Shown here in pieces: positions 1 to 4,623 of a DNA stretch of 64,000 bases; position 1 is the first letter of the stretch, and every line of letters begins with the position of its first letter. The position numbers and the translations under genes are program-made. The notes beneath the pieces were generated by a model. It did no database searches. It saw only the letters and a program-made list of their open reading frames with translations, and was not told the origin of the DNA. The DNA lies in the NCBI GenBank assembly GCA_017303395.1, contig JAFLBN010000009.1, forward strand, positions 62,001 through 126,000, in the 5' to 3' direction. This DNA is from Chitinophagales bacterium (lineage in GTDB: Bacteria > Bacteroidota > Bacteroidia > Chitinophagales > Chitinophagaceae).

Positions 1-1086
1 CTTCACAGTTGCCCTATGTGCAGCGATGCTGCAGACGGGCTGATGGCGCAGCAAGGAAAAGGTGTAGAAGTATTGAACGCCATCAATGCCGATTTCCTTA
101 CAAAACATCTTGGTGCTGCAAATCCGCAGTCGTCACGCAATATAAATATGTCAGCTACAAATAATACCAACATAAACGACACGAAGAAAAAGCCTTCACC
201 TGCCATGATAAAGGCAAAACCTGTGAGAAGCTATTTTGCGTTCAGGACAATGTCTGTTGCAGCTGTTATTTTGTTTGCAATAGTTGGTATATGGTACTAC
301 AGGCTTACAAACGATGTATTGCAGGAAAGCCAACCCGTAGCACAGGAGCTACCAAAGCCTGCACCTGTAGAGCAACCTGCAGTAGCGCAATATGCAGAAG
401 ATACAGAACAGGCAGTAGCTGCAGCCGCAGATATGATGAGCAATGGTGCCGCAGAAGTAGGCACGCAACCATCTATTACACAAAGTCCCGCAACAAAAGA
501 TAAGGGAGTAGTGGCGATGGCTGCACCTGCACCCGAAAAAGAAGAGAAACAGGGACTGCTGAAAAGGCTTGGCAATAAAATAGAAGCAGCAGCTGCAAAG
601 AAAACAACTCAGCAATTATTGGGTGCTATCAAAAACGATAACCCTGATAAATATGCAACATCTGCAAAGAACCAGTTTGTAGAAGAGCAGCGCATGAAGC
701 CTAAAGAAGAGCGCTCAGATGTAGCAGATATGCAACCCGGAAATGCTTCAAGAGCTACAGGCAACAGCTACCAGCCTACTGAAGATGTAAAAGCGGTAAC
801 AGTAAGCGAAAAAGAAGCATTGGAGCCTGTCAGCAAAATTGATAAAGCAGATCAGTTATTGAAATCAGGCAAGGCAAGCGATGCGCTTAATCTCTATACA
901 CAGGAAATGCGTGGTGCAAGCAGTAAGGGCAAACGTCAGGAAGCAGCTATTGGTGCCGCACGCTGTTATGTTGCTTTGGGCAACCGCTACAAAGCAAAAG
1001 ACATACTGCTAAGCATAGTAGATGAGGGTGGTCCACGCAAACGTGAAGCCAAACGTATGCTGAAAGAGCTGGGTTGGGAGGAATAA
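1..1086 (+). CDS. Anti-sigma-factor-like membrane protein with C-terminal TPR-like region (5' end outside window)
   Basis: The frame is open from the first base, so the gene starts before the window. The first visible residues, LHSCPMC, look like the tail of a zinc-binding His/Cys motif as found at the N-terminus of anti-sigma factors; this is inferred from a few residues only. A basic stretch is followed by one membrane segment near visible residues 83-100 (SVAAVILFAIVGIWYY). The rest would be periplasmic: an Ala/Gln/Pro-rich linker, a Lys/Glu-rich region, and about 80 C-terminal residues resembling tetratricopeptide helices (DQLLKSGKASDALNLY, then GAARCYVALGNRYKAKDILL). An ECF sigma gene would be expected just upstream. 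A general membrane TPR protein is the alternative. Confidence 0.6.
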   Translation, partial: LHSCPMCSDAADGLMAQQGKGVEVLNAINADFLTKHLGAANPQSSRNINMSATNNTNINDTKKKPSPAMIKAKPVRSYFAFRTMSVAAVILFAIVGIWYYRLTNDVLQESQPVAQELPKPAPVEQPAVAQYAEDTEQAVAAAADMMSNGAAEVGTQPSITQSPATKDKGVVAMAAPAPEKEEKQGLLKRLGNKIEAAAAKKTTQQLLGAIKNDNPDKYATSAKNQFVEEQRMKPKEERSDVADMQPGNASRATGNSYQPTEDVKAVTVSEKEALEPVSKIDKADQLLKSGKASDALNLYTQEMRGASSKGKRQEAAIGAARCYVALGNRYKAKDILLSIVDEGGPRKREAKRMLKELGWEE

Positions 1087-1102
1087 TGATTTTATCAGGC
1101 AC

Positions 1103-1130
1103 AAAAAAACCGCTCTGCAATTGAGAACGG
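1103..1130 (-). terminator. Intrinsic terminator of the candidate RNA
   Basis: Minus-strand stem CCGTTCT/AGAGCGG with a 7-nt loop, followed by seven T. The stem holds one U-G pair in this orientation and would have a C-A mismatch in the other. Confidence 0.7.
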
Positions 1131-1217
1131 TAATATGATGAAGGCTTTGTGGTTGTAGCTCTGGTGTTAGCTCATACAGGGGCTGTATCCGATATCGACC
1201 ACACACTTCATTTGCCT
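1103..1217 (-). ncRNA. Candidate structured small RNA with its own promoter and terminator
   Basis: On the minus strand, paired segments nest like a multi-branched RNA. Outer helix: ATGAAG/CTTCAT (plus 1206-1211 with 1138-1143). Next helix: TGTGGT/ACCACA (1198-1203 with 1148-1153). Inside are a hairpin ATACAG-CCC-CTGTAT (1174-1188) and a weak AGCT/AGCT pair (1157-1160, 1169-1172). A 7-bp hairpin and T7 tract follow (1103-1130). One terminator pair is U-G on the minus strand but C-A on the plus strand, which fixes the orientation. A perfect TATTTTTG -7 box lies at 1224-1231. I see no convincing coding frame. Rfam families of Bacteroidota such as Flavo-1 are possible matches that I could not test. 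Confidence 0.6.
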
Positions 1218-1223
1218 CGGCTA

Positions 1224-1231
1224 CAAAAATA
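1224..1231 (-). promoter_or_regulatory. -7 box of the candidate RNA promoter
   Basis: TATTTTTG on the minus strand matches the Bacteroidota -7 consensus TAnnTTTG exactly. No clear TTTG/TTG -33 box is seen at the usual distance. Transcription would start near 1216-1220. Confidence 0.5.
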
Positions 1232-1374: not shown

Positions 1375-4300
1375 ATGAGAAGATATTTATCTCTGTTGCT
1401 GTGTCTTACGGTTGTTACAACCACGTTTGCACAATCAGGCGATTATAGAAGTACATCCAATCCGCTGTATTGGAAAAACCGCAAACCCGATGGGGCATAC
1501 TGGCAACAGGATGTTCATTACAAGATAGATGCCAAAATAGACGAGACTACCAATATCATTACAGCCGACGAAACGCTGGAGTATTGGAACAACTCGCCCG
1601 ATACATTGCGCTTTGTATATTTCCACCTGTGGCAGAATGCTTTTGTAAAAGGCTCGCACCTGCACGATCTGGAAGAGGCCATCAATACCAAAATACGCAT
1701 GGGCAGGTATGAAAGGCAAGGGCTTGGTACCACCATCGATGGCTTGAAAGCTGACGGACAGGAAGTAAAAACAGAACTGGATAATACGATACTGAAAGTG
1801 TACCTGCCAAAGCCATTGTTGCCTAATAGCAAGGTTACCTTCACGATGGATTTCAAAACCTATTACGATAACGGAGCTACACGCCGTCGTATGAAGATGT
1901 ATGATGCTTGGGGCTATAAGCACTACAACGGTGTGCAGTGGTTTCCTAAAATATGTGTGTACGACCGCAAGTTTGGCTGGGATACGCACCAACACCTTAA
2001 TAAAGAATTCTATGCAGACTTTGGCTCTTACGATGTATCGCTCGATTTTGCATCGAACTATATAGTAGAAGCAACAGGTGCGTTGCAAAACAGGAAGGAA
2101 GTACTGCCTGACGACCTGCGTGCAAAACTGGATATTAAAAACTTTGCCAGCAAACCTTGGAATGAAAAACCAAGCGAGATAATACCATATAAAAAAGGCG
2201 AGCGCAAAGTATGGCGATTCAAAGCAAACAACGTACACGACTTTGCATTTACTGCAGACCCTACTTACCGCATAGGCACTACTACATGGAATGGTGTGGA
2301 ATGCGTAGCACTTGTGCAGGAGCCACATGCAAAAGGCTGGCAGAATGCTGCAGATTATGTTGCAAAAATCATCAAGACTTTCTCTGAAGATGTAGGCATG
2401 TATCAATACCCTAAAATGGTAGCTGCAGATGCAGCAGATGGTATGGAATACCCGATGCTGACATTAGATGGTGGTAGCGACCCTGGTTATCGTGGTTTGC
2501 TGGTGCACGAGATTGCACACAATTGGTTCTACGGTCAGGTAGGTAATAACGAAACATACCGTGCAGCGCTCGATGAAGGCTTTACGCAGTTCCTCACAGC
2601 ATGGGGCCTGCGCAGAATAGATGGCGATACATTGGTAGAGAACAAGCCGCGCGGTTACAAAGGTTTGTTTTACGAGCCTGAAATAGTGGTTGATAAAAGA
2701 GTATATAACGCATACTTGTTTGATGCATTGAATAAAGAAGAGCTGCCGCTCAATACACACTCAAACGATTTTAATGATGCAGTAGGTCACGAGGGTGGTT
2801 ACCGTGGTGTGTATTACAAAACAGCTACTATGCTGTATAATCTTCAGTACACATTGGGCGATTCATTGTTTCAGGCTGCACTGAAAAACTATTTCCACCA
2901 ATGGCGTTTTGCACATCCTTATTTCGAAGATTTCCGCAATTCTATAATACAATATACTAAGGTAGATCTCAACTGGTTTTTCGACCAATGGTTGGAAACA
3001 ACAAAAGCTATTGACTATAGCATTGAGGGCATACGCAGAAAATCGGACGATACATTTGCTATCAAATTCCGTCGTAGGGGGCAAATGCAAATGCCGATAG
3101 ATTTCACCGTTACCACCCGCAATGGCGAAAAGCAAAACTTCCACATACCTAATACATGGTTTGTAAAAGAAACGCCTGCAACGGTACTGCCTAAATGGTA
3201 TGGCTGGGGCAAGCTGCACGATGAGTACACTGCTTATGTGCAAGTACCCGATGGTATTCGCAATGTGCAGATAGATACCAGCTACAGGCTGGCAGATGTG
3301 TACATACTGGACAACTATAAAACACGCGGCTTACCATTATCTCCTAAAGCAATAGCAGTAAAACTGGATGGTGGTGTATCTGCACCGTGGGACAGAAGGC
3401 ACAAGCGCATGTATGTGCGTCCTGATGTATGGTACAATCCCGTTGATGGTATAAAAGCAGGTATCCACTTCGAGGGAGATTATCTATACACAATGCATAA
3501 AGTAGATGCTACTATATGGTGGAATACACACGTATTGCAGCACTACGATTTTAAATCTACTGTCAGCCAAAGCTGGTACGAAAAGTATGTGCCTGTAAAT
3601 TATACATTCTCGCATACATCACCCATCACACGTTGGATGCCTAAACTGCAGTCGCAAATCAGCAGCCGTTTCTTAGATGGTTTGTGGTATCATCGTGCAG
3701 GTGGCAACTATCTTGTCAACAGCCGTAATACATTGTCGCTCTATGCACAAACTATGTGGCGTTCGCTCAGTTACGACAGAGATTACCTGATTTATCAGAA
3801 CGAGTGGAGCAGCGCACGCGCTATGCCCAATTCATCGCTCAATGCTTCATGGTCTAACAGTTATACATACAAGAGAGGGCATGGTAATTACAAATTCCAC
3901 CTGCGTGCGCCATTCCTTACAGGTAATAATCCTGCTGCATTCAATTATGCATATGCACAACTGGAAGCGGTTAATTATAATAAACTAGGTAAGCTGGAAA
4001 TCCGCACACGCATCTTTGGCCGCTATGGTACTGGTACGAATGTGCCTAACGAAAGTGCATTGTGGCTGGCAGGTGCAAACCCCGAAGATCTGATGGAAAA
4101 TAAATATACCCGCAGCATTGGTTTCATTCCCGATAACTGGAGCAACATTTCTCAATATGAAACAAACCATTTCCAGATGGGTGGTGGTTTGAATCTGCGT
4201 GGCTATGCAGGCTACTTTGTAGCAGACCAGCGCAATGGCAATATACTGATTGGCTATAAAGGACGCAGTGGTGCATCTGCAAGTGCCGAGGTAGATTTTG

Positions 4301-4623
4301 ATGAGTACATAAAATTCCATCCAAAGTATCTGCGCGATTATCTGCATCTGGATGCATACCTGTTTGCAGATGCGGGTGCAATAGAATTGAGCAATGCAAC
4401 ACTTTCGCAATATTGGAATATTGCACCTACTACCATGTGGAGCGATATTCGCTTAGATGCAGGTCTTGGTTTTGCACTGACGGTTAAGAAGTTTGGTTGG
4501 TTTAATAAAGCCAACCCGCTTACATTGCGTTTCGATATGCCGGTGTTGCTCAATCGTCCGCCGTATGCAAATCCTGATTACGCAAACTTCCGTTATGTGG
4601 TTGGTGTAAACAGAACATTCTAA
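1375..4623 (+). CDS. M1 family metallopeptidase fused to a probable outer-membrane beta-barrel
   Basis: A 1082-aa exported protein with a signal peptide at residues 1-19 (ends TTTFA). The first ~600 residues are an M1 aminopeptidase-type domain: substrate-anchoring GMEYPM at 356-361, zinc motif HEIAH at 378-382 and third ligand Glu401 in LDEGF, the HExxH-x18-E spacing of gluzincins. M1 enzymes remove N-terminal residues from peptides. The C-terminal ~430 residues do not look like M1 sequence. They are rich in alternating aromatic strands, contain GGLNLRGYAGYF near 935-946 as in surface-antigen/BamA-type barrels, and end in Phe. I infer an outer-membrane-anchored peptidase. The gene is transcribed alone and ends at a strong hairpin. 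Confidence 0.85.
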   Translation: MRRYLSLLLCLTVVTTTFAQSGDYRSTSNPLYWKNRKPDGAYWQQDVHYKIDAKIDETTNIITADETLEYWNNSPDTLRFVYFHLWQNAFVKGSHLHDLEEAINTKIRMGRYERQGLGTTIDGLKADGQEVKTELDNTILKVYLPKPLLPNSKVTFTMDFKTYYDNGATRRRMKMYDAWGYKHYNGVQWFPKICVYDRKFGWDTHQHLNKEFYADFGSYDVSLDFASNYIVEATGALQNRKEVLPDDLRAKLDIKNFASKPWNEKPSEIIPYKKGERKVWRFKANNVHDFAFTADPTYRIGTTTWNGVECVALVQEPHAKGWQNAADYVAKIIKTFSEDVGMYQYPKMVAADAADGMEYPMLTLDGGSDPGYRGLLVHEIAHNWFYGQVGNNETYRAALDEGFTQFLTAWGLRRIDGDTLVENKPRGYKGLFYEPEIVVDKRVYNAYLFDALNKEELPLNTHSNDFNDAVGHEGGYRGVYYKTATMLYNLQYTLGDSLFQAALKNYFHQWRFAHPYFEDFRNSIIQYTKVDLNWFFDQWLETTKAIDYSIEGIRRKSDDTFAIKFRRRGQMQMPIDFTVTTRNGEKQNFHIPNTWFVKETPATVLPKWYGWGKLHDEYTAYVQVPDGIRNVQIDTSYRLADVYILDNYKTRGLPLSPKAIAVKLDGGVSAPWDRRHKRMYVRPDVWYNPVDGIKAGIHFEGDYLYTMHKVDATIWWNTHVLQHYDFKSTVSQSWYEKYVPVNYTFSHTSPITRWMPKLQSQISSRFLDGLWYHRAGGNYLVNSRNTLSLYAQTMWRSLSYDRDYLIYQNEWSSARAMPNSSLNASWSNSYTYKRGHGNYKFHLRAPFLTGNNPAAFNYAYAQLEAVNYNKLGKLEIRTRIFGRYGTGTNVPNESALWLAGANPEDLMENKYTRSIGFIPDNWSNISQYETNHFQMGGGLNLRGYAGYFVADQRNGNILIGYKGRSGASASAEVDFDEYIKFHPKYLRDYLHLDAYLFADAGAIELSNATLSQYWNIAPTTMWSDIRLDAGLGFALTVKKFGWFNKANPLTLRFDMPVLLNRPPYANPDYANFRYVVGVNRTF

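Follow-up and report, generated by a model that had tools for sequence, protein, structure and literature searches.

The window analysed here is a stretch of 64,000 nt of DNA from a Chitinophagales bacterium (GCA_017303395.1, contig JAFLBN010000009.1, positions 62,001–126,000 of the forward strand). A gap between two protein-coding genes in this window very probably holds an independent small RNA (sRNA) gene, which we call A and which is predicted to be transcribed leftward from its own TAnnTTTG promoter to its own terminator. The features of the locus are as follows.

1..1086, plus strand: gene of a TPR-type protein, the convergent neighbour of A (Pfam match weak, slightly below the cut-off; the gene begins outside the window)
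1103..1219, minus strand: predicted transcript of sRNA gene A (start deduced from where the TAnnTTTG box lies, end placed at the T run)
1103..1109, minus strand: T run of the terminator of A, seven T (sequence)
1109..1131, minus strand: intrinsic terminator hairpin of A (terminator scan, folding and covariation)
1162..1166, minus strand: second block of A, CACCA (CACC invariant in 11/11 homologues), complementary to UGGUG of the multicopy sRNA-like family B
1175..1185, minus strand: core of A, CAGCCCCUGUA, invariant in 11/11 homologues and complementary to B with one G-U pair
1224..1231, minus strand: perfect TAnnTTTG promoter box, TATTTTTG (sequence and homologue comparison)
1375..4623, plus strand: M1-family peptidase gene, the divergent neighbour of A (ORF and Pfam; beside A in 10/11 homologous loci)

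Several elements that the first-pass annotation had read in positions 1103–1231 are present as described. The perfect TAnnTTTG box is found as TATTTTTG on the minus strand at 1231–1224, and the terminator hairpin at 1131–1109 of the same strand runs into seven T at 1109–1103. A U-G pair in this hairpin had been taken to favour the minus strand, and the energies agree: the folding energy of the hairpin piece is −8.4 kcal/mol for the minus strand (1/200 shuffles equal or better) versus −5.0 kcal/mol for the plus strand (6/200 shuffles), where no T run follows it. One terminator-like hairpin was found on the minus strand of A, versus a mean of 0.5 (sd 0.8) in shuffled sequences. The gap had also been considered free of any credible gene, and the sole ORF of at least 60 aa that overlaps it is a 65-aa frame with a GTG start (1009–1206, minus strand), which overlaps the upstream gene. 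TAnnTTTG boxes are described at −12 to −5 relative to starts in Flavobacterium (PMC9723704), and by this spacing the start of A would lie at about 1219 and the RNA would be about 117 nt long. At the DNA level A is single-copy in its own genome. Judged by sequence, it has what is expected of an sRNA gene, namely a promoter and a terminator of its own, a conserved body and no conserved ORF.

For the homologue search, 80 loci encoding relatives of the divergent M1-family peptidase were fetched. Seven of them (L032–L036, L038 and L040) have, at the same place, an element on the minus strand that combines a promoter-like box, CAGCCCCTGTA and a terminator; at L039 the A homologue lies 3 kb off the M1 gene, with a 911-codon gene between the two. 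A covariance model (R1) built from the window and these eight loci detected A in 11 of the 15 genomes of the genus, with E-values from 3e-22 to 2.7e-11. Nine of these 11 homologues had been used to build R1, and the two found later (L121 and L123) are close to the members L035 and L036. Three further genus genomes (G297, G301 and G302) gave only weak, terminator-like R1 matches, and G094 gave none. A perfect TAnnTTTG box begins 5–11 nt before the model start in nine of the 11 homologues, L038 and L040 being without one, and a terminator is recognizable by eye in the alignment of all 11.

A is divergent from the M1-peptidase gene in 10 of the 11 loci. On the terminator side the neighbouring gene is convergent, with three types across the 11 loci, so that A does not serve as a downstream gene's leader. 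The preservation of A beside the M1 gene while the gene types on the other side differ, and 3 kb from it where a gene intervenes (L039), was counted in favour of a real gene. The first proposal, an undescribed Bacteroidota sRNA on the minus strand, is well supported, since 11 of 15 genus genomes hold homologues that share the promoter, the terminator and the invariant core. The accompanying suggestion of Flavo-1 or another known Rfam family is not supported: the Rfam 15 covariance models gave no match at gathering score in the window, and the only matches with E ≤ 10 in the region 1070–1390, fstAT and ceN40, are unrelated, at chance level and far below the cut-off. The homologue loci L113, L121 and L123 likewise had no Rfam match.

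Other searches delimit the range of A. A plain DNA search of 195 family genomes found no full-length relative, the best partial match outside the own genome covering 31 bases (E 8.7e-4), and a search of a plasmid collection found none either. A strict pattern of the core plus a G+C-terminator matched one of 294 genomes and missed A's own locus, where the terminator differs; R1 was used instead. Among 394 family genomes, R1 gave matches with E ≤ 0.001 in 15. The seven of these outside the genus were discarded, as were the inspected weaker matches within it: the core is absent from them and mainly the terminator was matched. Three loci of other genera with weak R1 matches that lack the A core (L173, L176 and L178) look non-coding and carry a terminator; they resemble one another and may represent another sRNA family.

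In the alignment of the 11 A sequences, the 11-nt core CAGCCCCUGUA and CACC are invariant and the remainder drifts, with a 5′ block (approximately GATnAGGAnnTGTG) and AGCCTTAT before the terminator partly kept. The own genome was scanned, with no mismatch allowed, for TRYRGGGGYTG, which complements the core with G-U pairs tolerated. This gave 30 sites, compared with 10 for the reversed-pattern control and a random expectation of about 29 estimated by base count. Four of the 30 sites are copies of a single intergenic seed-terminator element, TTTTCATGGTGATAGGGTTTATAGGGGCTGGCCTGTTCTCAGGCTGGCTTTTTT with small variations, which we call B. A second covariance model (R2), built from these four copies and a copy in L046, found two to seven B matches per genome in all 15 genus genomes at E ≤ 0.01 and, at E ≤ 1e-4, detected B in 41 of 195 family genomes and 22 of 101 genera. 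Five matches lie in the own genome (G000), at C44:130635-130701 and 130764-130830, C12:305520-305586, C1:388491-388557 and C42:35704-35770 (loci L226–L228, L207, L203 and L326).

B is a short multicopy element with a predicted length of about 55–60 nt, whose 5′ region, UUUUCAU(G/A)GUGAUAGGGUUUAUAGGGGCUG, holds the complement of the A core. In an alignment of the 86 best-scoring matches (49 best loci, 58 distinct sequences, weaker copies left out), positions 4–32 are invariant except for one G/A position, one copy being cut at its 5′ end, and the terminator covaries, with three stem pairs changing on both sides. Weaker copies differ; in the own-genome copy on C42, for example, a C replaces the last G of the core complement. 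Of 63 distinct B copies, 45 have a TAnnTTTG box in the 60 nt upstream, with 18 boxes ending exactly 6 nt before the seed, compared with a background of 150 in 4416 windows (3.4%). Rfam assigns B to no family at gathering score, the only matches being weak ones to the L20 leader far below the cut-off, and searches of viral contigs (exact 23-mer), plasmids and phages did not detect B. Four genus genomes and genomes of other genera have B but lack A. We infer that B is transcribed as RNA, and it looks like an unrecognised, highly conserved multicopy sRNA family.

The A core can form 11 pairs with B, including one G-U, in all 11 homologues. At the seed level the predicted A-B duplex has an energy of −30.2 to −33.5 kcal/mol in 11/11, which is equalled by 0–4 of 300 shuffles of each A; when B was shuffled against five A sequences, 0–3 of 300 shuffles equalled the duplex energy. 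Among 21,320 overlapping segments from both strands of the window, A is the second best distinct B site. The columns of A that pair with B are invariant in 15 of 18 cases versus 7 of 62 elsewhere, a difference that is partly circular, since B had been found by searching with the invariant core. On the B side, the core match extends into the terminator stem. With unfolding costs included, A of the window pairs with B no better than shuffled A (15/60 equal or better), and the same is true of L032, L033, L034 and L039 (21, 44, 24 and 15 of 60, respectively), while L121, L036, L123, L035, L038 and L040 do better than their shuffles (1, 3, 5, 5, 0 and 0 of 60). When the 5′ part of B was shuffled with the core match kept, for six of the 11 A sequences, equal duplexes arose in 254/1000 mononucleotide and 106/1000 dinucleotide shuffles. 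Because the shuffled 5′ part pairs as well, the CACC block is no proof of A-B pairing. The pair cannot be tested by compensatory change, as the seed of B hardly varies.

Sites complementary to B, of the types CAGCCCCU and CCUGUAAACCCUAUC, are present in the leaders of several mRNAs. In the 15 genus genomes, CCTGTAAACCCTATC with at most one mismatch has 74 matches versus one for the reversed control, most of them being B itself. All five exact CCTGTAAACCCTATC sites lie 42–81 nt before a same-strand mechanical ORF start, two of the five being orthologous. Eighteen of the 74 matches were taken as neither B nor B-like, and 16 of them were scored, seven as leaders and nine in coding frames. The unscored pair consists of a site in L345 before a relaxase gene and a site in L326 opposite the surrounding genes, which is therefore no leader. 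A wider count with CAGCCCCTATAAACCCTA (56 loci, all non-B places, up to three mismatches) gave 67 sites, divided into five B copies, 45 sites in mechanical ORFs of at least 70 aa and 17 intergenic sites, ten of which precede a same-strand ORF by at most 130 nt. Several leader sites are orthologous or paralogous, so that the independent cases are fewer than these counts.

By Pfam, the genes behind the B sites include that of a TrwC relaxase in L385, L345, L329 and L330; in the last two, a gene of a type IV coupling protein is also found behind such a site. L383 reads like L385, and relaxase-leader sites are found in five genomes (L383, L385, L345, L329 and L330); the site in L345 shares positions with a mechanical ORF of the opposite strand. 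In L151 (G299:C3), L180 (G294:C7) and L381 (G094:C1; 65 nt), a B site precedes a DUF4440 gene by 65–79 nt, and in the first two the leader contains the 11-mer of the A core within longer B complementarity. L151 and L180 were considered as a second sponge and dropped, since the DUF4440 gene behind them, likewise present in L381, makes a leader site more likely. Three leader genes (L386, L395 and L396) have no Pfam match. This distribution suggests that B may regulate mRNAs through such leader sites. In L151 and L180, a terminator-like hairpin and a T run lie between the B site and the start codon in an attenuator-like arrangement. In L369 (G301:C326:1894), a B-like complement site lies 128 nt before the gene of ribosomal protein S12.

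We propose that A is a base-pairing sRNA acting through B, probably as a decoy (sponge), a reading whose chances we judge to be about even. A would pair through its core CAGCCCCUGUA, partly presented in a small hairpin, and its most likely partner would be B, through the complement of the core in the 5′ region of B. A looks like a target of B that lacks a coding region, which would be the anatomy of a decoy. By titrating B, A would most likely relieve the action of B on mRNAs with leader sites; both the pairing and the sponge role are predictions of this model. The confidence placed in the A-B mechanism goes no higher because the energy controls are mixed when unfolding costs are included and negative beyond the core. 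A more ambitious version is a speculation that we consider rather unlikely: A might be a dedicated decoy, perhaps the first for Bacteroidota, that titrates a FopS-like B with TrwC relaxase and coupling-protein leaders among its targets, the whole forming an RNA circuit that sets the expression of mobile elements and some other genes.

The decoy model competes with several others. A may be an ordinary trans-acting sRNA whose C-rich core acts on G-rich mRNA sites, the match to B being coincidental; we regard this as a minority possibility, albeit one of some weight. The core is both C-rich and invariant, its complementary sites in the own genome are about as numerous as expected by chance, and the energy controls for B beyond the core are mixed or negative. 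None of the 30 own-genome sites, however, is a convincing leader site of a long ORF, the exception being the B copy L227, 63 nt before one, and the search for targets of A among these sites yielded nothing convincing except B. B is also the only match with the anatomy of an RNA gene, within a no-mismatch scan that would miss weaker targets. As the site count is near chance, B could be a lucky match, for which we allow a very small probability. In the genus, TACAGGGGCTG has 58 matches versus four for the reversed control, 11 of the 58 being A itself; this was rejected as target enrichment, because most inspected sites lie in open frames, several of them opposite an apparent Pro/Ala-rich stretch.

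The direction of the interaction might also be the reverse, with B acting on A, so that A is a regulated target or the two RNAs degrade each other. That B sites of the same type occur in several mRNA leaders makes B look like the regulator, as this arrangement would have it. Regulation of A for its own sake, on the other hand, would need a second function of A, which has no conserved ORF and, outside the core, CACC and the short, partly kept blocks, is poorly conserved. We consider this arrangement improbable.

It is less probable still that A binds a protein or senses a ligand as a structured RNA whose branched fold is functional. The multi-helix fold described in the first-pass annotation is recovered as the minimum-energy fold of 1104–1216 on the minus strand, but its conservation across the 11 homologues is not confirmed. 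Its energy of −29.2 kcal/mol is equalled or bettered by 5/200 shuffles (z −2.17). The plus strand of 1104–1216 folds better (−34.9 kcal/mol; 4/200 shuffles, z −2.58), which makes the fold alone weak evidence that does not mark the minus strand. Single folds that beat most shuffles in the window, in L038 (clearly, 0 of 200 equal or better) and in L033 (mildly, 7 of 200) speak for a functional structure, whereas those of L034, L035, L036 and L039 (140, 62, 24 and 30 of 200) are not clearly better than shuffles. Covariation of the A fold without the terminator is also above controls (0.161 versus at most 0.120 for slid controls; 0/500 shuffles), but the fold does not stand out in the two measures that, according to the tool, are affected less by relatedness, where 32 and 191 of 500 shuffles reach the same level. 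Across the 11 homologues, helices 1, 2, 3 and 5, four of the five outside the terminator, are paired in only 55–67% of cells, compared with 89% for the core hairpin and 87% for the terminator, and RNAalifold applied to the first nine homologues kept only the small core hairpin and the terminator. In this nine-sequence consensus, 3/11 pairs change on both sides, all three in the terminator hairpin.

The initial picture of a structured multi-helix RNA is weakly supported, the core hairpin and the terminator holding better than helices 1, 2, 3 and 5. Compensatory changes in the outer helix ATGAAG/CTTCAT, which had been named as potential support, gave a mixed result: three of the six pairs change on both sides and one never varies, but three pairs, two of them among those changing on both sides, are broken in 6–7 of the 11 sequences. 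The closing stem of A may exist in shifted registers. The clear constraint on A falls on an 11-nt sequence. A small protein encoded by A is highly improbable and was rejected, as the 14-codon ORF over the core (MKCVVDIGYSPCMS) in the window and L032, and the 16-codon ORF in the same frame in L034, have no counterpart common to the 11 homologues, among which the ORFs vary in frame, start and length, not every spacing change is a multiple of three, and L036 has no ORF of at least 10 codons over the core.

Returning to the decoy model, the likeness of A to the sRNA sponges of Enterobacteriaceae lies in a non-coding transcript that can pair with another sRNA's seed; unlike them, A is predicted as a separate gene. 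Examples of the Enterobacteriaceae sponges are processed pieces of mRNAs or tRNA precursors, or prophage RNAs, and mostly act with Hfq. Bacteroides is described in the report on FopS as lacking the classical sRNA chaperones (PMC11697453). Rfp18 of Flavobacterium psychrophilum, a species in whose genome TAnnTTTG-type promoters dominate, is reported as an independent, genus-conserved sRNA (PMC9723704). A is like Rfp18 in being an independent sRNA conserved in a Bacteroidota genus; by its description, Rfp18 is set apart as strongly structured and protease-linked (PMC9723704). Flavo-1 (RF01705) and 6S-flavo (RF01685) are Bacteroidota non-coding RNAs (PMC2864571), and A differs from both in matching no Rfam family at gathering score. 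A literature search covering titles and the beginnings of abstracts found no Chitinophagaceae sRNA and no Bacteroides sponge RNA. A is apparently a new genus-level sRNA of a known kind, and both families, A and B, look new. The match of the A core to the B seed yields a candidate circuit of two RNAs that is concrete and open to test.

A itself is not FopS-like, and the closest parallels of B are FopS and GibS, sRNAs of Bacteroides thetaiotaomicron (PMC11697453). Like FopS as described there, B is short and multicopy, with a 5′ seed and, in many copies, a TAnnTTTG-type promoter (PMC11697453). In local alignment with the 70% FopS consensus published there, the B seed scores 11–13 versus 6 ± 1.2 for shuffles. 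For two B seed variants, 3 and 0 of 2000 mononucleotide shuffles are as good; the similarity to FopS R1′ is partial, and the sequence is not the same. Unlike FopS, B is carried by members of another family (Chitinophagaceae, Flavipsychrobacter and the like), and its leader sites lie mostly 42–128 nt upstream of starts. FopS, to which RbpB binds, pairs with start-codon regions of susC-type genes. Of the 17 ATYAYYATGAAA sites outside B in the own genome (narrow pattern), one (L263) coincides with the start of a long ORF, which is not SusC-like. The words "sponge", "decoy" and "mimic" are absent from the main text of the FopS paper (PMC11697453). With its candidate sites in relaxase leaders, B may be the larger find and merits a study of its own.

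The genomic settings of individual B copies vary. Two own-genome copies stand in tandem downstream of infC (Pfam IF3). A variant copy belongs to a recurring element (L326 at 2239, L327 at 2263, L328 at 2048, L332 at 3149 and L333 at 2940, the last on the minus strand), which also carries a recombinase gene of the resolvase type (Pfam Resolvase for L326) together with a series of same-strand genes. In L326–L328, TATAAACCC-type repeats lie on the other strand near the start of the downstream ORF.
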